Assembly (NCBI RefSeq): GCF_026168555.1
Contig: NZ_CP092471.1
Span: 1,870,501-1,934,500, forward strand
DNA length: 64,000 nt
Origin: Qipengyuania spongiae
Lineage (GTDB): Bacteria > Pseudomonadota > Alphaproteobacteria > Sphingomonadales > Sphingomonadaceae
Direction: 5' to 3'
The stretch's first letter is position 1, and each line of letters begins with the position of its first letter. The notes under the pieces were generated by a model. The model did not search any database, had not been told where the DNA came from, and saw only the letters and a list, made by a program, of their open reading frames with translations. The position numbers and the translations under genes are program-made. Shown piece by piece: positions 1,108-24,201 of the stretch.

Positions 1108-2324
1108 GCCCGCACCCGCTCCACAACATCGGCCTGAACGTTGGCCCAGAACAGCGGCAGATCGTAAACATGGTAATTGCTGCCCGGCAGTACGCCTTCG
1201 CCCAGTTCGGGCGGGTCGCCGATCAGCAGCAGACCACGCTCGTCGCACCGAGCCGGGACGGCTCCGGGCACCAGATCGCCGCGCGTCAGCCCCTCGTCGG
1301 GAACCAGCGTGCCGAGATTGTCGGAGGCCGGTGCCGATCCGCCGACCGCGCCGGTGAGGGGGTTGGTGCACAAGATCGGTCCGTCGCCGCGCTGCTCGCC
1401 GTCGAAGCCCGGCGTTGTCGAATAGCGGCGCATTAGAAAATCGGGATCGCCGTCGTCGGCGAAGGAGGACCAGGACTGGATGCAGCCCACCTGACCCTTT
1501 GCGCCACATGGGGGCAGGGGCAGTTCGGGCAGATCGTGCTCCACCGAGATCGGCCAGCCCGGCGCATAAACCGCAGCGATGCGATCCCGCAACGGCGTGT
1601 CGCCAACCTCGGAAATCAGCAGGCGCAGAACGTGAAGCGCACCCTGGCTATGACCGGCGAGGACGATCGGCTTCTCGGGATCGACACTGTCGAGAAAGAA
1701 CCGGAAAGCGTTGCGTACGTCCGCATAGGCGGCGTCGATCGCCATCTGCGCTTCCGGCCGGTCGGTCAGGAACGCGCCGACGGCTGCCTGACGATAGCGC
1801 GGCGCCCAGATTTCGTCCGCCCGGTTGAACGGGCTGGCAAGTCCGCGAAGGAAGGTTCGTGCCCGCGCGTCGGTCTGGGTGTCGTCGAGGCTCGCGTTCC
1901 AGTCACCGCCCGCCTGAATGTAGCTGGTCGGTGGCACGAAGAAGACGGCGAAGGGCGGGGTCTCGCCGGTTCCGGCCGGTTCGGCGCTGCGCGAGCTCTG
2001 CGGGTCGAGCGCTCCATCGGAACCGGGCAGGCTGCGTTCCGCCGCGGGAGCTTCTGGCGAGGGCGTGCGGGTTGCCGGGTCCTGCGGCGCTTCAGCGATC
2101 GCCGGTTGGTAGCGAGCGGGGTCCTCGCGACCGATGCCGGGCCGCGAATACCACATGGCCGGGTCCTGATAGGCGTTTTCGGCGAGCGGCTGCTGTTCCA
2201 CGAATTCGCCACGCGGCACGAACGCGATCTCCGTTGCCTCGCGCGACCATATCGACAGCGCAATCGCACCCAGAATGACCAGAACGATAATGACGGCAAT
2301 GAAATAGAGGAACTTACGCGCCAT
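1086..2324 (-). CDS. DUF3089 domain protein, membrane-anchored alpha/beta-hydrolase-like
   Basis: 412 residues. The N-terminus (about residues 4-26) is one hydrophobic helix and acts as a signal anchor, so the rest should lie in the periplasm. A Pro/Ser/Glu-rich linker (about 75-122) follows. The body has the features of DUF3089: the FFVPPTSY strand, DWNASLDD, and a nucleophile elbow AGHSQGA with Ser226. The late motif SNYHVYDL probably holds the histidine. DUF3089 proteins belong to the alpha/beta-hydrolase clan; the substrate is unknown. It sits between the permease gene and ruvX on the same strand. The start is the ATG right before the hydrophobic helix. Confidence 0.85.
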   Translation of the reverse strand: MARKFLYFIAVIIVLVILGAIALSIWSREATEIAFVPRGEFVEQQPLAENAYQDPAMWYSRPGIGREDPARYQPAIAEAPQDPATRTPSPEAPAAERSLPGSDGALDPQSSRSAEPAGTGETPPFAVFFVPPTSYIQAGGDWNASLDDTQTDARARTFLRGLASPFNRADEIWAPRYRQAAVGAFLTDRPEAQMAIDAAYADVRNAFRFFLDSVDPEKPIVLAGHSQGALHVLRLLISEVGDTPLRDRIAAVYAPGWPISVEHDLPELPLPPCGAKGQVGCIQSWSSFADDGDPDFLMRRYSTTPGFDGEQRGDGPILCTNPLTGAVGGSAPASDNLGTLVPDEGLTRGDLVPGAVPARCDERGLLLIGDPPELGEGVLPGSNYHVYDLPLFWANVQADVVERVRAWLNARS

Positions 2325-3504
2325 TGCTGTGATTGCCTCGCAGGGGTGATCCGGTTGAAGGCGGAATGACTGTCGCGGCTGCCATTGCCTGATCTTCCTC
2401 CACGTTGCGATCGGCCCGGCGCTCCAGCGCTACTTTCAGCATGGCCAGCAGCGGATCGGCGAGGAAAATGCCGAGAATGCCGAAGAGAAGCCCCATCACC
2501 AACTGAGCGGCAAGCACCAGTGCCGGGGCGAGATCGACGGTCTTCTTCGCGATCATCGGAATGATCACGTAGCCATCGAAGTTCTGGACGAAGAGATAGA
2601 CGACGATGGTGTAAATTCCCATGTCGACGCCGCCGGCGAAGCCCACCAGTGCCATCAGGACACCGGAAACGATCGCGCCGAGATTCGGGATAAAGGCGAG
2701 CAGACCGGTCAGTATCGCCAGAAGAGCCGCCATGGGCACTTCGCCGACCCCGACCAGTCGGCTGAAATAGGCCAGCATCAGATAGGTGAAGATCCCTTCG
2801 ACGACCATGCCGAGCAATCGCCCCGCCATCAGCCGGCGAAGCGTGAATGCCATCTGTTCGAGAGTTCCGGCGAAATGGGCGCGCTTGCCACGCGGCAGCA
2901 TCCATTCGAGGCCGCGCTGGTAAAGCTTCGGCTCCAGAGCAACGTAGATGCCGATGATCAGGATGAGCACGATGGTCGTAAGGCCGCCGAACAGTCCGCC
3001 CAGGGCGCGGGTCACGGTGCCGATGCCGCTGGTGACGGCGCCGACATGGTTCTCCAACTGCTCCTGACTGATGTCGAAGCCCTGCGCGCGTGCCCAGATC
3101 AGCAACTGGTTGATCTGACGTTCCACGATCGCGGGGAACTGAGCCGCCTCGTTGGATATCGTCGTTCCGGCAAAATAACCGAGCCAGGCAAAGAACAGGA
3201 TGCCTAGAAGGATGACGATGGCGACCCGCCAGGTCCGCCCGATCGGCAGGACACGGCCGAGAAGGCGCGCTCCGCCATCTATCATGGCGGCGAAGACCAT
3301 AGCGCCGAACACTACGAGCAGCGGCTTGGCAATATAGACAGCGAGGAGAATGCCCCCCACCACCAGCGACCAGATTGCCGCTCTGGCGAATTCGAAACGC
3401 AGGCGCGGATCGGCGATGCGCGTCGGGCTGACGCGGCGGTCCTTGCCTTCGCCTCCGTCCTGTCCGCCGGCGTGATCCTGTCCGGTGCCCTGCGTGTCCG
3501 TCAC
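2314..3504 (-). CDS. AI-2E family transporter (PerM/YdiK-type permease)
   Basis: 396 residues from a GTG start at 3504, 14 bases after the lepB stop. The protein has the layout of the AI-2E exporter family: two helices near the N-terminus (about 35-90), a soluble segment with a predicted coiled part (FPAIVERQINQLLIWA), then a run of helices from about 160 on, including the family motif FIPNLGAIVSG and the C-terminal LVMGLLFGILGIFLADPL. Despite the family name, most members have no proven autoinducer role; transport of small molecules or ions across the inner membrane is all that can be said. A longer reading frame upstream is antisense to lepB coding and was not used. It overlaps the DUF3089 start by 11 bases. 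Confidence 0.88.
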   Translation of the reverse strand: MTDTQGTGQDHAGGQDGGEGKDRRVSPTRIADPRLRFEFARAAIWSLVVGGILLAVYIAKPLLVVFGAMVFAAMIDGGARLLGRVLPIGRTWRVAIVILLGILFFAWLGYFAGTTISNEAAQFPAIVERQINQLLIWARAQGFDISQEQLENHVGAVTSGIGTVTRALGGLFGGLTTIVLILIIGIYVALEPKLYQRGLEWMLPRGKRAHFAGTLEQMAFTLRRLMAGRLLGMVVEGIFTYLMLAYFSRLVGVGEVPMAALLAILTGLLAFIPNLGAIVSGVLMALVGFAGGVDMGIYTIVVYLFVQNFDGYVIIPMIAKKTVDLAPALVLAAQLVMGLLFGILGIFLADPLLAMLKVALERRADRNVEEDQAMAAATVIPPSTGSPLRGNHSNGA

Positions 3505-17079: not shown

Positions 17080-18069
17080 ATGCTTGTCGACAGCTTCCAG
17101 CGCCGCATCACCTATCTGCGGCTGTCGGTCACCGACCGCTGCGATCTGCGCTGCACCTATTGCATGCCCGAGCGCATGAAATTCTTGCCGAAATCCGAGG
17201 TTCTCGATCTCGAGGAACTGCAACGCCTCGCGCTCGCCTTCATCGCGCGCGGCGTGACGAAGATTCGCCTGACGGGCGGCGAGCCGCTGGTCCGTCGCGA
17301 CATGATCGATCTCGTGCGAGCGCTGGGCCGCAGGATCGGTGACGGGCTGGAAGAGCTGACGCTGACCACAAACGGCACGCAACTGGCGCAATATGCCGAT
17401 GCGCTGGCCCGTGCGGGCGTGAGGCGCGTCAACGTCTCGCTCGACACGATCGATCGCGAGCGTTTCGCAGCCCTGTCCCGGCGCGATGCCCTTCCGCAGG
17501 TGATGGAAGGCATCGCCGCGGCCAAGGCGGCGGGCCTCAAGGTGAAGCTGAACACGGTCGCCCTGAAAGGCGCGAACGAAGAAGAGTTGCCCGACCTGAT
17601 CGCCTGGGCGCACGGGCAAGGGCATGATGTGACTTTGATCGAGGTCATGCCCCTGGGCGAGGTCGATGGCGATCGGATCGACCAATATCTACCGCTGACG
17701 GCGGTGCGCGACCGGTTGGAGCGGCAATGGACGCTGACCCCATCCGACCACCGCACCGGCGGCCCGGCGCGCTATTTCGACATTGCCGAGACTAGCGGCA
17801 GGCTGGGTCTCATCTCACCTCTGACCGAGAATTTTTGCGCCGGATGCAACCGGCTGCGGGTTACCACGACGGGCCAGCTCTATCCCTGTCTCGGCGGTGG
17901 CGAGCGGGTCGATTTGCGCGCTGCGCTCCGTGAAGATCCGGGCGACACCGCGCTCGATGCCGCGCTCGACCGGGCTCTTGCCATCAAGCCCGAACGTCAC
18001 GCCTTCCGCATCGACCGGCGCGGAGAGACACCCGCCCAGCCGCGCACCATGTCGGTCACGGGCGGCTGA
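17080..18069 (+). CDS. moaA: GTP 3',8-cyclase (molybdenum cofactor step 1)
   Basis: 329 residues. MoaA is a radical SAM enzyme that, with MoaC, converts GTP to cyclic pyranopterin monophosphate. The N-terminal cluster motif is Cys21-x3-Cys25-x2-Cys28 in CDLRCTYCMPERM; GGEPLVRRD is the SAM-binding strand. The second iron-sulfur cluster is held by FCAGCNRLR and the later PCL cysteine. The C-terminal Gly-Gly, needed for activity in MoaA, is present (SVTGG). The ATG at 17080 gives the usual MLVDSFQRRITYLRLS start. moaD follows with a TGATG overlap; moaC and moaB are not in the window. Confidence 0.97.
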   Translation: MLVDSFQRRITYLRLSVTDRCDLRCTYCMPERMKFLPKSEVLDLEELQRLALAFIARGVTKIRLTGGEPLVRRDMIDLVRALGRRIGDGLEELTLTTNGTQLAQYADALARAGVRRVNVSLDTIDRERFAALSRRDALPQVMEGIAAAKAAGLKVKLNTVALKGANEEELPDLIAWAHGQGHDVTLIEVMPLGEVDGDRIDQYLPLTAVRDRLERQWTLTPSDHRTGGPARYFDIAETSGRLGLISPLTENFCAGCNRLRVTTTGQLYPCLGGGERVDLRAALREDPGDTALDAALDRALAIKPERHAFRIDRRGETPAQPRTMSVTGG

Positions 18070-18311
18070 TGGCGATCCGCATCCTTTTTCTCGGTCCGCT
18101 CGGCGACCTGGCCGCCAGAGGCGAGCGCGAGGTCGCGGGTCCGCTGGACTGGGACGGTCTGCTGGAAAGCGTCGGCCCACAGGTTGCCGCGCAATTGCGG
18201 GATGATCGCGTGCATGTCGCCTGTGCGGGCAAGGTGCTTGCCGACAAGACTGCGTTGCTCGCACAGGACGGTGAGGAAGTCGCGCTGCTCCCGCCGGTGT
18301 CGGGTGGCTAG
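18069..18311 (+). CDS. moaD: Molybdopterin synthase sulfur carrier subunit
   Basis: 80 residues with a ubiquitin-like fold. The C-terminal Gly-Gly (PPVSGG) is the site that is adenylated and thiocarboxylated by MoeB-type enzymes, after which MoaD gives sulfur to the pterin within MoaE. The core FLGPLGDLAARGEREV and AQDGEEVALLPPVSGG match the family. It overlaps the moaA stop (TGATG) at its start and the moaE GTG at its end. Confidence 0.95.
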   Translation: MAIRILFLGPLGDLAARGEREVAGPLDWDGLLESVGPQVAAQLRDDRVHVACAGKVLADKTALLAQDGEEVALLPPVSGG

Positions 18312-18783
18312 GCTCTCCGTCCGCAGCCCCGCCGATGTCCGCCTTCTCAATCGCGGCCTCTCGGTCGGCGAAGGGCTTGCCGCCTTCAACGCGGCGCACG
18401 GTAAGGCCGGCGCCGTTGCCTCGTTTCTCGGCAAGGTCCGGCCCGATGGCGACGTGAAGGCGCTCGAGCTTACCCATTACGAACCGCTGACCCTGCCCGG
18501 CATGGAGGCGCTGGCACAACAGGCGGTCGAGCGCTTTCGCCTCGACGGCGTGCTCGCTTGGCACCGGGTGGGCGTGATGCAGCCGGGCGATGCGATCGTC
18601 CTCGTCGCCGCAGCGGCCCGCCACCGGCGCGACGCCTTCGATGCGGCGATGTTCGTGATGGACCACCTCAAATCCGCCGCATGGTTCTGGAAGCGCGAGC
18701 GACGCGGGTCGGGGCCGGACGGCGAATGGCGCTGGGTCGAACCGCGCGGCGCGGATCACGCCGATCTGGCGCGGTGGAATTAA
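18304..18783 (+). CDS. moaE: Molybdopterin synthase catalytic subunit
   Basis: 159 residues from a GTG at 18304, eight bases inside moaD. MoaE binds the pterin and makes molybdopterin with MoaD. Seen are GAVASFLGKVR, LELTHYEPLTLPGMEALA, LAWHRVGVMQPGDAIVLVA, and the catalytic lysine region MDHLKSAAWFWKRE, where the two Lys residues act on the substrate. No ATG is available at the right place, and the overlapping GTG fits the coupling seen along the whole moa run. Confidence 0.95.
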   Translation: MARLSVRSPADVRLLNRGLSVGEGLAAFNAAHGKAGAVASFLGKVRPDGDVKALELTHYEPLTLPGMEALAQQAVERFRLDGVLAWHRVGVMQPGDAIVLVAAAARHRRDAFDAAMFVMDHLKSAAWFWKRERRGSGPDGEWRWVEPRGADHADLARWN

Positions 18784-18793
18784 TTCGCGTCGT

Positions 18794-18807
18794 TTGATCG
18801 CGATCAA
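18794..18807 (+). promoter_or_regulatory. FNR-type operator (TTGAT-N4-ATCAA)
   Basis: The sequence TTGATCGCGATCAA is a perfect match to the FNR/Anr/FnrL consensus and fully symmetric. Its centre (18800.5) is 41.5 bases upstream of 18842, where a start would be expected from the -10-like GATAAC at 18830-18835, the geometry of class II activated FNR promoters. The gene at 18864 is the target. The regulator gene at 19293-19979 lies next to it. Confidence 0.85.
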
Positions 18808-18829
18808 ACAGTTTCGGTGCGAGACGACC

Positions 18830-18835
18830 GATAAC
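18830..18835 (+). promoter_or_regulatory. -10 element of the FNR-dependent promoter
   Basis: GATAAC lies 22 bases after the FNR site and gives a predicted start near 18842. There is no good -35 box, as expected when an activator sits there. A GAGGGAG ribosome site follows at about 18849, then the ATG at 18864. Confidence 0.55.
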
Positions 18836-18863
18836 GACTGCACACCACGAGGGAGCAGTCGTC

Positions 18864-19286
18864 ATGTCCAAGCATCTTACCCGCCAGCTCGTCGCCGAGC
18901 AGGCGATCGTCCATGGCCGGTTCGTCCAGCCGACGAAAGTCGATCGCAGCTTCGAAATGCCGAAAGTGCTCTACGGCGTCACCGTCGCGCTCTATCTCGG
19001 CTTCATCGCAATTATGGGGATCGGCTTGCAAAGTCCGGGCCTGTTGATTCCGATGGTGATCTTCGCGCTGTTCATCGTCGCCGGTTTCGGACTGCCCGCG
19101 CTCTGGACGCGCCTCGAACCGGACCACGGAACGCCGCAGATGCCGCTCGATACGCTTCTGCGGCGCGGGATCGCGACGCATACCGGACACCTCCCCGGCC
19201 GCGATGCGGCGGTGCAGATGCTGATGCTGCCCGCGCTGATCTTCGCATGGGGCTTGGTTACGGTCGCTATCGCCGCGACGGTCTAG
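18864..19286 (+). CDS. Three-helix membrane protein under a probable FNR promoter, unknown function
   Basis: 140 residues with a polar N-terminus (about 1-33) that includes HLTRQLVAEQAIVHGRFVQP, then membrane helices at about 36-55, 60-80 and 116-138, and a loop DPADHG-like (EPDHGTPQMPLDTLLRRG) between the second and third. I recognise no family. A strong ribosome site (GAGGGAG) stands before the ATG. The perfect FNR site with class II spacing says the gene should be switched on when oxygen is low. It ends seven bases before the stop of the facing regulator gene. A role in the respiratory membrane is plausible but not shown. Confidence 0.8.
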   Translation: MSKHLTRQLVAEQAIVHGRFVQPTKVDRSFEMPKVLYGVTVALYLGFIAIMGIGLQSPGLLIPMVIFALFIVAGFGLPALWTRLEPDHGTPQMPLDTLLRRGIATHTGHLPGRDAAVQMLMLPALIFAWGLVTVAIAATV

Positions 19287-19292
19287 GCACGG

Positions 19293-19979
19293 TCAATCGC
19301 AAGCCGCAGCCAGCAGCGCGGGGTCGAGCAGCTCGATCCCGCGTTTGCCGTCGCGCGCGATGGCGCCGGCGCGCTCCAGCGCGGTGAGCTGGCGGCTGAC
19401 CGTCTCGATCGTCAGGCCGACCATGTTCGCCATCTCGCCCCGCGACAACGGCAAATCGAACCTGGGGGCGGGGTGGCACGGCGAATCGCTCGCGGCCTGG
19501 GCGAAGGCGAGCACCATGCCCGCGACCCTCGCCCGGCCGGAATTGCGCCCGGCGAGCGCCTGGATCGAACGGCTGGCGTGAAGGTCCTCCTGCGTCCTGC
19601 GCAACAGGGCGCGGGCGAGGGCGGGGTAGTGCTCGATCGCCGCCGCCATGTCGGGTCCGGCGAAAACGCACAGCGTGCTGTCGACCAGAGCCACAACGTC
19701 GTGATGGACGAAGGGCTGGAACAATTCGCCCACGAATCCGGCTGGGTGGACCAGAGCGAGAATATGCTCGGCCCCATCGGCACCGTAGCTCGCGATCTTG
19801 AGCGCACCCGAGGTGAGCGTCGCGCAGGCCGCGGGGTCACTGCCCGCGGAAAACAGGGTTTCGCCCCTCCGCACGGTTCGCAGGCGGCCTAGCCGGGCCA
19901 GCGCATCGCGCTCGTCCTCGGCAAGCACGGAGCAGGCCGCGCGATCCCTCACCGGGCAGGCGGCACAGCCGAGGCTCAC
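19293..19979 (-). CDS. Crp/Fnr family oxygen-responsive regulator (FNR/FnrL type)
   Basis: 228 residues. The N-terminus MSLGCAACPVRDRAACSVL holds Cys5, Cys8 and Cys16, and Cys104 (in DSTLCVFAG) lines up with the fourth cluster ligand of E. coli FNR, so a [4Fe-4S] oxygen sensor is complete. The cyclic-nucleotide-like barrel spans about 25-120 and a long dimer helix about 120-160. The helix-turn-helix LSRGEMANMVGLTIETVSRQL carries Glu192, Ser195 and Arg196, the E-xx-SR set that reads TTGAT. The start is a GTG overlapping the lipoprotein stop. It probably controls the membrane protein gene facing it, among others. Confidence 0.92.
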   Translation of the reverse strand: MSLGCAACPVRDRAACSVLAEDERDALARLGRLRTVRRGETLFSAGSDPAACATLTSGALKIASYGADGAEHILALVHPAGFVGELFQPFVHHDVVALVDSTLCVFAGPDMAAAIEHYPALARALLRRTQEDLHASRSIQALAGRNSGRARVAGMVLAFAQAASDSPCHPAPRFDLPLSRGEMANMVGLTIETVSRQLTALERAGAIARDGKRGIELLDPALLAAACD

Positions 19980-20506
19980 CGGATTTGTGCGCGCAAGTCT
20001 CGCAGCGCGTCGTCTTCCTGCGCGATCAGCGCGAGAACCTCCGCGCGCGTCGCGTCGATCGCGGTCCGTTCCTCCGACTGGACCGCTGCCGCGATTGCGA
20101 GGATGTCGAGATCGGCGAGCGCGATCGCCGTGTCGCTGCGGATCGAATCGAGGTCCGACAGCGCGACTTCGGCGCTCGCCCAGGCGTCGCTGCCGACCGA
20201 CGCTGCGGACGCGGCGGCGGTCAGACGCGAGGCGCCGGGCCGGGCGGCGAGGAAGCGTTCGTGCGCCGCGCGCGCGCTTTGCGAAAGTGCGGCGAGGCGT
20301 TCGGGCAGCGTTCCGGTCAGTCCGGTGGGCACTTCGGGAACGTCCAGTGCCGGGGTTTCGACAGTCTCGAATCGCCCTTCGGCCCGCTCGATGTCGCGAA
20401 TGGCAAGCGACGGATAATCTCCCGACGCGCTCTGGCAGGCTCCGAGCCCCAGCGCGAGTACGAGCGCGGCCGAAGTGATCGATGGCGATGGTGCTGGACG
20501 GTGCAT
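19976..20506 (-). CDS. Putative lipoprotein, helical, unknown function
   Basis: 176 residues from the ATG at 20506. A basic start, a hydrophobic stretch (TSAALVLALGLGAC) and the cysteine at about residue 24 make a good lipobox (LGAC), so the mature protein should be lipid-anchored. The rest is helical and rich in Ala, Asp, Glu and Ser, with no known domain. The stop overlaps the GTG of the FNR-type gene, so the two are translated together; this pairing of a lipoprotein with the regulator is worth noting but gives no function. A start 24 codons further up is possible but would spoil the signal sequence. Confidence 0.75.
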   Translation of the reverse strand: MHRPAPSPSITSAALVLALGLGACQSASGDYPSLAIRDIERAEGRFETVETPALDVPEVPTGLTGTLPERLAALSQSARAAHERFLAARPGASRLTAAASAASVGSDAWASAEVALSDLDSIRSDTAIALADLDILAIAAAVQSEERTAIDATRAEVLALIAQEDDALRDLRAQIR

Positions 20507-22326: not shown

Positions 22327-23202
22327 TTATTCCGCCGGCATCAGGGCGTCGGTGAATTCGCCCTCGTAGAGACCGATCAGCTCGCGATCGTCGTGGTCCC
22401 ACGGGTGGAAGCCGGGCCTGAAATAGGCGAGCCAGGCGGGGAAGATCCGGCGCACGACGCCCGGCGTCACCGTCAGGTACTTGAACAGGCCCCAGCGCGC
22501 TTTCCAGCCGGTGATGCCGTCCTGTTTTAGCAGCATCATCGCATCGATCCAGCGGTTCTTGAAGAAGCGCCCGGTAACGATCATCATGACCAGGCTGCGC
22601 ACGCGCCAGCGGCGCCAGGCGCCCCAGCCCTTCGTCGCGTGGTTCCAGGTGTCGTAGGCGACGCCCTTGTGCTCGATCTCCTCGACCGCGTGCCAGCGCC
22701 ACATGTCGCGCACTTCCGGATCGGAGGTCTCGAAATGCTGCGGGTTGGCGAGGAACTCGTGCGCCATCATCGCGGTGTAGTGCTCGAGCGCCATGGTCAC
22801 CGCCAGATTGGCGATCGCCGGGCGGCCCTTGGTCAGCGCGAGCAGTTCCTCGACGCGCTTGTCGATCGCCTTGATGTCGTAGCCGTGATCTTCGGCCAGC
22901 CGGTTGAAGGCGATGTGTTCGCGCGTGTGGTTGATCTCCTGCTTCACGAAAGCGCGGATCTCTGCCTCGAGCTTCGGCGGCGCGCCTTCGCGATGGGCTT
23001 TCACCGCTTCGATGAAGAAGGCCTCGCCCCGCGGGAAAGTGGCGGAGAGCGCATTGTGCCAGGCGGTGCCGAAGGGCTCGCCCGCCCACCAGCGGCGCGG
23101 CGCGGTGCCGCGATTGAAGCGTTCGTCCCGCACCACGATCGCGAGATCGCGGGGCGTGGGATCGTTACGGCTATCGACGTCGATATGGGCAGGTGCGTTC
23201 AT
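22327..23202 (-). CDS. Predicted metal-dependent hydrolase (PF10118 type), ferritin-like
   Basis: 291 residues. The chain holds spaced acidic and histidine motifs on helices as in di-iron proteins: GEAFFIEAVKAH, FVKQEINHTREHIAFN, MALEHYTAMMAHEF and HAVEEIEHKGVAYDTWNH. These match the family called predicted metal-dependent hydrolase in COG2314-like annotations (PF10118). The real reaction is unknown; a di-iron oxygenase or desaturase-like activity is possible. It is 40-50% similar by eye to the next gene, with the same ending DALMPAE/AAVMPAE. A double palindromic operator covers its promoter. Confidence 0.85.
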   Translation of the reverse strand: MNAPAHIDVDSRNDPTPRDLAIVVRDERFNRGTAPRRWWAGEPFGTAWHNALSATFPRGEAFFIEAVKAHREGAPPKLEAEIRAFVKQEINHTREHIAFNRLAEDHGYDIKAIDKRVEELLALTKGRPAIANLAVTMALEHYTAMMAHEFLANPQHFETSDPEVRDMWRWHAVEEIEHKGVAYDTWNHATKGWGAWRRWRVRSLVMMIVTGRFFKNRWIDAMMLLKQDGITGWKARWGLFKYLTVTPGVVRRIFPAWLAYFRPGFHPWDHDDRELIGLYEGEFTDALMPAE

Positions 23203-23268: not shown

Positions 23269-24201
23269 CTACTCGGCGGGCATCACTGCCGCGGCGTAAT
23301 CGCTCTGCGTCTTGCCGAGCAAGGCGCGATCGTCGTGCTTCCAGGGGTGGAAGCCCGGCATCAGGATCGCCGCCCATTCGAAGAACATCCGCCGCATCAT
23401 GCCCGGCTTCCACCACAGGAAGGCGCGGAGCCTGCGCCGGGCCGTCCGGCGGTCGAAGCCATCCTGTTCGAGCAGGCCAATCGCATCGCGCACCCGGTTG
23501 CCGAAGTATTTCTTCGTGATGAGCAGGGCGATCAGTGAACGCGTCTTGTAGCGTTTCCACGCGCTCCAGTCCTTCGTCGCGTGGAGCCAGACGTCGAACA
23601 CCAGCCCCTTGTGCTCGATCTCCTCCATGGCATGCCAGCGCCAGATCTCGGCAGCTTCGGGATCGGCGCCCTCAAGGTAGCGTGGGTCGGCCAGCAGATG
23701 TCGGCTGATGATCGCGGCGAAATGTTCGAGCGCGATGGTAATCGCGAGGTTGAATTCCTTGGGCCGCCCCTCGGTCAGGTCGAGCATCGCCTGGATGCCT
23801 TCCGAGATGCTCTCCACATTGTAACCGTGATCGGCGACGAGACGATTGAACGCGACGTGTTCGCGCGTGTGGTTCACCTCCTGCTTGCTGAAAGCCCGCA
23901 CCTCGGCCCGCAGGCCAGGCGGCAGATCGTCGCGGAAAGGCTTGAGCGTATCGATGAAGAACGCCTCGCCGCGCGGCAGGCTGGCGCTCACCGAATTGTA
24001 CCAGGCGGTTGCCACCGGGTCGTTCGAGTGCCACCAGCGCGGGCTCTTGTGCTGCCGGTCGAACCGCCGGTCGCGCACGATAAGCTCGTGTTCCATGGGA
24101 GTCGCGCTGCCACGGGCGAAGCCGAATGCATTATCGTCCGGGGCGGGGCGGGCCTTGCCGTCCTGGCGGACCGGGGCTAGCTTTTCGGTCGGTGGCGTCA
24201 T
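23269..24201 (-). CDS. Predicted metal-dependent hydrolase (PF10118 type), paralogue
   Basis: 310 residues, a tandem paralogue of the gene at 22327-23202. It keeps the same candidate metal motifs: GEAFFIDTLK, FSKQEVNHTREHVAFN, IALEHFAAIISRHL and HAMEEIEHKGLVFDVWLH. An extra 20-25 residues at the N-terminus are Pro- and Lys-rich. There is no ribosome site before the ATG at 24201, so either the mRNA is nearly leaderless or the true start is an inner ATG (MEHELIVRDRRFD). It is divergent from the TetR gene with only 30 bases between the two starts, an arrangement typical of a regulator and its target. Confidence 0.85.
   Translation of the reverse strand: MTPPTEKLAPVRQDGKARPAPDDNAFGFARGSATPMEHELIVRDRRFDRQHKSPRWWHSNDPVATAWYNSVSASLPRGEAFFIDTLKPFRDDLPPGLRAEVRAFSKQEVNHTREHVAFNRLVADHGYNVESISEGIQAMLDLTEGRPKEFNLAITIALEHFAAIISRHLLADPRYLEGADPEAAEIWRWHAMEEIEHKGLVFDVWLHATKDWSAWKRYKTRSLIALLITKKYFGNRVRDAIGLLEQDGFDRRTARRRLRAFLWWKPGMMRRMFFEWAAILMPGFHPWKHDDRALLGKTQSDYAAAVMPAE

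Follow-up and report, generated by a model that had tools for sequence, protein, structure and literature searches.

The locus considered here lies in the window, by which we mean the whole 64,000-nucleotide stretch of DNA analysed, from a complete genome of 2.93 Mb. In it a membrane protein gene of no nameable family (the target gene) follows the moa genes and faces an FNR-type regulator, and an FNR box stands before it. This arrangement raises the question of how such a gene would be switched when oxygen falls, and of what would keep it silent when the operon in front of it is read. The explanation that we favour joins a class II FNR switch to a leader gate like that of the phage T4 lysozyme gene, acting on run-on RNA, and taken as a whole we hold it to be reasonably probable.

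The locus and its FNR box

Along the window, moaA, a moaD-like gene and moaE come first; the FNR box and the target gene follow them, and the regulator lies beyond on the opposite strand (Table 1). moaE is about 80 bp upstream of the target and co-directional with it. Homologous loci were sampled as the best 80 of the 153 named loci found with the target, and the closest to the window's own, among the matches listed, come from Qipengyuania, Erythrobacter and alphaproteobacterial MAGs. By tblastn, moaE is upstream on the same strand as the target in 78 of these best 80 loci, and the lipoprotein-like gene, which has no Pfam or NCBIfam match, is near the target in 78 of the same 80, regardless of the presence or absence of the regulator. 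Elsewhere in the window, two adjacent genes on the reverse strand (22327-23202 and 23269-24201) look alike by eye and are perhaps a tandem duplication.

Table 1. Features of the target locus, in window coordinates
Feature	Coordinates	Strand	Remarks
moaA	17044..18069	+	Pfam Radical_SAM and Mob_synth_C; upstream co-directional operon, possible source of run-on RNA
moaD-like gene (ThiS family)	18069..18311	+	Pfam ThiS, 26.4 bits
moaE	18304..18783	+	Pfam MoaE (on 18310-18780); start codon read by eye
FNR box TTGATCGCGATCAA	18794..18807	.	Perfect match; centre 18800.5; conserved in 80 loci
-10 element GATAAC	18830..18835	+	From the sequence and the aligned loci
Inverted repeat, 5' arm ACGACTGC	18834..18841	+	Predicted -8 to -1, so would be absent from FNR-started RNA
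Predicted transcript start for class II FNR activation	18842..18842	+	From the -41.5 geometry; the hairpin position supports it
Shine-Dalgarno-like AGGGAG	18850..18855	+	Mostly in the hairpin loop in the window species
Inverted repeat, 3' arm GCAGTCGT	18855..18862	+	Adjoins the start codon
Target gene	18864..19286	+	Membrane protein of 140 aa with three predicted helices; belongs to no named family
FNR-type regulator FNR1	19293..19979	-	Convergent with the target; Pfam, NCBIfam and alignment
Lipoprotein-like gene	19976-20506	-	Adjoins the regulator

A first-pass annotation of this DNA had proposed that the box is perfect and that its centre lies 41.5 bases before the transcript start predicted from GATAAC, and both points were confirmed (18800.5 and 18842). 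The box is the sole perfect FNR match in the 64-kb window and one of two in the genome, the second lying inside a gene. Within 150 bp upstream of the homologues in the best 80 of 153 loci, the best box was perfect in 59, had one mismatch in 14 and two mismatches in 7; a box with at most two mismatches was thereby found in 80/80. Homologues with no FNR site, named in the first-pass annotation as a refuting observation, were thus not met with. The pattern TTGAY-N4-RTCAA fits 76 of these 80 boxes. As a control, 662 other ORFs were picked by program in the same loci; five of them had a site with at most one mismatch and four a consensus site, and all four consensus matches were the target's own box, seen from antisense ORFs over moaE. 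The half-sites of the box hold about 1.2 to 2 bits a base, and the two middle spacer bases are variable at 0.4 bits each.

If +1 is counted off at 41.5 bases from the centre of the box, 79 of the best 80 of 153 loci have A at -11, and 79 have C or T at -12. The distance from box to -10 element is fixed, despite a distance to the start codon that varies from 57 to 65, with two loci at 99. The same offset gives TAGGCA at the genome's own ccoN promoter and GAACGG at the Crp-like gene beside ccoN, and position -11 is A in each. In Sphingopyxis granuli, according to the passages of PMC7713065 that deal with mapped starts, most FNR boxes centre at or near -41.5. The actual start of the target transcript would be expected at the same spacing. 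Footprinting across the best 80 of 153 loci strongly supports the proposal that this unnamed membrane gene is under class II FNR control, and comparison of the sequences likewise favours the box, its geometry and the link to FNR.

The regulators and their distribution

The regulator matches PF13545, PF00325 and cNMP_binding, and its sequence has what characterises an FNR-type protein: the cluster cysteines, a cNMP-like domain, a Crp helix-turn-helix and E-xx-SR. The four cysteines and the E-xx-SR motif, already pointed out in the first-pass annotation, proved to be general, since Cys5, 8, 16 and 104 and E192-TV-S195-R196 are present in 50/50 aligned regulators (49 adjacent ones and the window's). 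Its top NCBIfam match is FnrL (NF045989) at 134.2 bits vs a cut-off of 300; the score being below the curated cut-off, the regulator does not count as an FnrL equivalog by that rule. The regulator is beside the target in 49 of the best 80 of 153 loci and was not found beside it in 31; in 30 of these the target directly adjoins the gene that normally comes after the regulator (at L018 the contig ends too soon). The box is perfect in 22 of the 31 loci without the adjacent regulator vs 37 of the 49 with it. Beside the cbb3 operon (ccoN) of the genome lies a second FNR-like gene (38% identity), the product of which could, judging by sequence, be the reader of the target's box. That region (L147, G000:C1:2678000-2696000) contains NnrS, the second FNR-like gene, a box, the Crp-like regulator, another box and the cco genes, and thereby holds two of the genome's few intergenic FNR boxes.

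We then compared the occurrence of gene, regulator and oxidases in 296 genomes of the order, with all counts made without kinship correction. A genome was scored as target-positive at E<=1e-20, which gave 83 genomes and left out 18 of 101 positives (diverged orthologues and paralogues); proteins were called FNR-like at E<=1e-20 to the window's regulator and of the adjacent type at E<=1e-55, both by sequence score, and the ccoN set excludes weak own-family matches and every match to other families. An FNR-like protein occurs in 82 of the 83 genomes with the target and the adjacent type in 62; the one exception, G265, has neither an FNR-like protein nor a consensus box. Four genomes have the adjacent-type regulator but no target, and 18 of the 21 target genomes without the adjacent type have ccoN. 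Within the genus of the window species, 18 genomes have gene and FNR (one of them, G168, with a degenerate target copy), two have FNR only, none has the gene only and four have neither.

One might see in the target a small protein that assists or assembles the cbb3 or bd oxidase, as the other intergenic FNR sites of its own genome include those of the cco cluster. However, 33 of the 83 target genomes have no ccoN, and in 24 both ccoN and cydA are missing, so the target is hardly an oxidase accessory; on the latter count we rejected this candidate, which we regard as highly improbable. As 21 of the 24 retain the adjacent-type regulator, FNR appears to be kept in genomes without these oxidases. 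In these genomes an earlier description of regulator and target as a self-contained unit fits well; overall it is only partly right, as is seen from the 31 of 80 loci where the regulator was not found adjacent. The window's own genome has two cydA-type genes (G000:C1:106037-107326 and 1698235-1699521).

Ten genomes were scanned for TTGAY-N4-RTCAA and the listed contexts read, mismatched sites being scanned in G000 only. In G142 (without ccoN but with cydA) and G232 (one of the 24) every consensus box besides the target's sits inside a long open frame. At least one further intergenic or start-near site beyond the target's was found in G000, G129, G118, G153, G128, G091 and G204, with one further intergenic site in G129, and in G216 the target's own box is off consensus and the other sites are outside genes. 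Usp genes adjoin extra boxes in G128, where the intergenic box precedes the Usp gene, and in G091. An FNR with a single target in every genome was rejected, given the extra sites outside genes or at gene starts in most of the ten genomes scanned. The target is nevertheless the only gene with a consensus box before it in all ten genomes read except G216.

The target protein and its wider family

The three predicted membrane helices and the want of a nameable family, as proposed from the letters alone, agree with the AlphaFold2 model (helices 34-55, 58-84 and 112-139, mean pLDDT 83.6) and with the searches of Pfam and NCBIfam, which returned no family at E up to 1. The target has 161 homologues, and among the 120 listed any functional name is hypothetical or uncharacterised protein. 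There is no Cys or His among the invariant residues of the homologue alignment, which makes a bound haem or metal unlikely.

A profile of weaker matches is homologous to the target family (hhalign probability 99.5), and 17 paralogues and remote orthologues searched in Pfam gave nothing better than E 0.0014. Paralogous proteins with three transmembrane helices (3TM) were found at L131-L146 and L261-L271, and globin-like, Rrf2-type and DUF1971 genes are in the vicinity of many. The context of 22 paralogue loci, as obtained by tblastn with seeds taken mostly from the same loci, includes a globin-like gene in 17 (two of them some 3 kb off), Rrf2-type genes in 14, DUF1971 in 14, FixJ-like genes in five and NnrS in one; relatives of two FNR seeds occurred in none of the 22. 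Among the globin seeds, one matched Pfam Bac_globin at 22.5 bits (cut-off 21), one scored 20.5 and one had no match. At L263, a single 316-aa ORF (1480-2430, reverse strand) joins a Bac_globin domain and a 3TM domain, and a database search for such a fusion found only one protein, P0241, with 6 member sequences. The globin may be of group III, as the database name of P0241 has it.

No consensus box was present among the two best sites of any of 15 paralogues checked, and a paralogue member occurs in 10 of 385 genomes of the class, four of these in the window's own family. Three distant relatives in the genus g18 are preceded by an FNR-like and a Usp gene, and their box is perfect. At L237 (G176), a gene for a response regulator (Pfam Response_reg and GerE, FixJ-like) and a further same-strand ORF, which we took for its kinase, precede a target homologue that has no FNR box. 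From these sequences the target would be the FNR-controlled branch of an alphaproteobacterial superfamily, the other branch of which is often found with globin-like and Rrf2-family genes. We think that the target is an inner-membrane protein acting on the membrane or the respiratory chain when oxygen is low or nitric oxide is present; that so many paralogues sit with globin and Rrf2-type genes suggests such a physiology.

The same neighbourhoods give some weight to a box that is read by a CRP/FNR protein sensing nitric oxide or devoid of a cluster, with control that does not depend on oxygen, and so does the Crp-like protein beside ccoN, in which no N-terminal cysteine set is seen by eye. The invariance of the cluster cysteines in the 50 aligned adjacent-type regulators and the joint presence, by sequence score, of gene and FNR-like protein in all target genomes but one make such a reader rather improbable. 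A reader of nitric oxide is only partly separable from the oxygen switch that we prefer, because clustered FNRs can respond to nitric oxide too.

A covarying inverted repeat at the predicted transcript start

The leader of the target holds a covarying inverted repeat, which is new here and absent from the first-pass annotation. In the window its arms are separated by a loop of 13 bases, the 5' arm just before the predicted +1 and the 3' arm overlapping the Shine-Dalgarno and translation start region. Among 81 leaders, with starts misassigned for L070 and L077 included, the longest perfect stem averages 5.7 bp vs 3.9 when the left part is shuffled, and there are 43 distinct arm pairs of at least 5 bp. 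Arm swaps and Shine-Dalgarno openness were computed for 77 of the 81 leaders and the opening cost for 79 (L070 and L077 added, L058 and L065 out). Native arms pair at -11.3 kcal/mol vs -7.8 for arms swapped between species in the 77 leaders, and the window's at -14.4 vs -4.1. The fold energy of the window's leader is ordinary against shuffles (z -1.38).

On a plain sequence alignment in which some arms are misplaced, and against shuffles that ignore kinship, the covariation score was 0.375 vs 0.272 and the pairs formed 67.1% vs 60.4%, each value being reached in 0/500 shuffles, and the count of double-changed cells was above all 500. The percentage paired and the covariation score both peak at slide 0. 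The remaining two of the five measures fell within the shuffles (both-side changes, 490/500; further pair types, 437/500). Hairpin and covariation therewith appear to be supported by the aligned leaders.

Of the 77 leaders, 96% have half or more of the 5' arm ahead of +1, and the 3' arm comes after +1 in 77/77; the 5' arm ends at -1 in 33 and begins at most 10 bases from +1 in 75. With the 5' arm so close to +1, a short shift of the start would matter, and the repeat might then serve start-site switching at the FNR promoter, where only the longer RNA keeps the hairpin and the signal is the nucleotide pools rather than moa run-on. In the enteric pyrC gene the start shifts by a few bases and only the longer form keeps a hairpin; a literature search for this precedent found nothing. 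However, the arm starts at -5 to -9 in most leaders, reaching into or next to the -10 element, which is a long way for a start to shift, and G112, the one divergent locus that has a site, shows no such hairpin. We consider start-site switching very unlikely, and return below to the gate on run-on RNA as the preferred reading.

Predicted opening of the translation start region

In the proposed mechanism, the fall of oxygen would activate the 18864 gene: an iron-sulphur regulator of the FNR family, the neighbour or another FNR, would bind TTGATCGCGATCAA, and transcription would begin about 41.5 bases downstream, at a start falling between the two arms of the repeat. RNA running on from moaADE would carry both arms, with the ribosome-binding and start region folded shut, and FNR-started RNA would lack the 5' arm and leave that region open. 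No terminator-like site was found between moaE and the target, and transcription from moa may run on into the target.

The predicted cost of opening positions -14 to +3 averages 12.2 kcal/mol in run-on RNA, 6.4 when the upstream part is shuffled and 4.4 in RNA from +1 (n=79). The run-on penalty exceeds 2 kcal/mol in 77 of the 79 leaders and 4 kcal/mol in 70, and in further leaders from the surveyed genomes it exceeds 2 in 16 of 17, some of these sequences being identical to named ones. Control genes (n=70) cost 8.7 in run-on RNA vs 8.3 from +1, with a difference above 4 in 7/70. The unpaired fraction of the Shine-Dalgarno sequence in 77 leaders is 0.19 in run-on RNA; it goes up to 0.44 once the 30 nt upstream are shuffled, and is 0.50 in RNA from +1. 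In a scan of the RNA 5' end, which includes the misassigned starts of L070 and L077, this openness remains close to 0.20 as far as about -8 and has reached 0.50 by +1. The gain exceeds 0.2 in 58 of 77 targets vs 5 of 66 control genes (controls 0.38 and 0.36). For the crp-like and fnrL2 leaders of the window's genome the opening cost does not differ in this way, and for its ccoN leader there is a smaller difference of the same sign (8.1 vs 3.4).

Loci with other surroundings gave mixed results. L032, where another gene takes the co-directional place upstream, retains the hairpin (15.4 vs 3.7), and the leader of G112, divergent from its upstream neighbour, has no excess cost, as the gate model predicts. 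G265 is also divergent, and its fold is costly even so (12.7 vs 4.7). Among the g18 relatives G245 and G121 show the difference and G133 does not (8.3 vs 7.9); in G199 it is reversed (11.8 vs 15.2), and the degenerate copy of G168 has lost the hairpin. Judged by Shine-Dalgarno openness, run-on RNA is open for 9 of 26 leaders from other contexts, and these nine include the two divergent cases and the degenerate one. L058 and L065 have a tandem-duplicated leader with two hairpins between box and start codon, the second of which would, from its position in the sequence, stay in FNR-started RNA. In the window species itself, the two RNAs leave the Shine-Dalgarno sequence open to much the same degree (0.43 run-on vs 0.44 from +1), only the wider start region is shut in run-on RNA (14.8 vs 8.4 kcal/mol from +1) and the start codon is less open from +1 (0.07 vs 0.39 run-on).

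The Shine-Dalgarno sequence lying mostly in the loop in the window species would fit an ordinary FNR target, in which the class II promoter alone matters and the repeat has some other role, for example in mRNA stability, or none; indeed, the promoter evidence holds without the hairpin. However, the arms covary and pair better than swapped ones, the predicted start falls between the arms in nearly all of the 77 leaders, and neither the 70 controls nor the crp-like and fnrL2 leaders share the difference, that of ccoN being smaller. We therefore rate an ordinary FNR target as unlikely.

For the preferred reading, we infer by analogy a gate in which run-on RNA from moa would be silent and FNR-started RNA open to ribosomes. 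Since there would be neither activator nor translation from the run-on RNA, the gene would be locked twice in air, and this double lock suggests that its product is unwanted there. In its fullest form, the reading is of a promoter nested in its own anti-ribosome hairpin, where FNR both makes the transcript and removes the lock, with the target as the near-sole FNR target of genomes without a high-affinity oxidase and thus a separate low-oxygen response of aerobes; to this fuller version we give an even chance.

Comparison with known systems

The target offers a direct test case for why bacteria without cbb3 or bd oxidase keep an oxygen regulator. If the gate is true, the hairpin at the start site would bring a phage-type device to an ordinary bacterial operon boundary, and would shield a gene from the one next to it at little cost, with no terminator needed. 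The superfamily, as delineated from sequence, would tie FNR control to globin-containing operons resembling those of nitric-oxide defence.

In regards to the promoter, the class II FNR/FnrN promoters of Sphingopyxis granuli TFA (ccoN, uspA) share with the target the TTGAc/t-N4-g/aTCAA box, the centre at about -41.5 and regulators of the FNR type, as described in the promoter passages of PMC7713065. The regulator beside moa and a 3TM gene is a feature of the window, unlike S. granuli TFA, for which Table 1 of that paper has no 3TM gene recognisable by name. The leader hairpin is likewise a feature of the window, and those passages of PMC7713065 describe none for S. granuli TFA.

The nitrogen-oxide stress operons with Rrf2/NsrR, globin and NnrS resemble the paralogue loci, in which relatives of the target are near globin-like, Rrf2-type or DUF1971 genes; the 3TM family is not named in the relevant passages of PMC1274295. 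The FNR branch to which the target belongs differs in the type of its promoter, and neither a globin nor an Rrf2 gene was seen among the neighbours at the window locus.

The closest likeness in working is with phage T4, in which, according to the accounts in PMC3014915 and PMC2988022, RNA helices close off the ribosome-binding regions of gene e (lysozyme), soc, 49 and I-TevI. For gene e, as set out in the pertinent part of PMC3014915, long transcripts are shut and those begun at late promoters a short way upstream are without the 5' portion of the helix, and for I-TevI the pertinent part of PMC2988022 describes a similar gate, with long upstream transcripts shut and late transcripts wanting the 5' side of the helix. 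The window's leader resembles gene e in the predicted shutting of the start region in long RNA, which is a likeness of working and not of kinship. Unlike the gates of T4, the putative gate of the window is chromosomal, is tied to an oxygen regulator instead of a late promoter and is a computational prediction.
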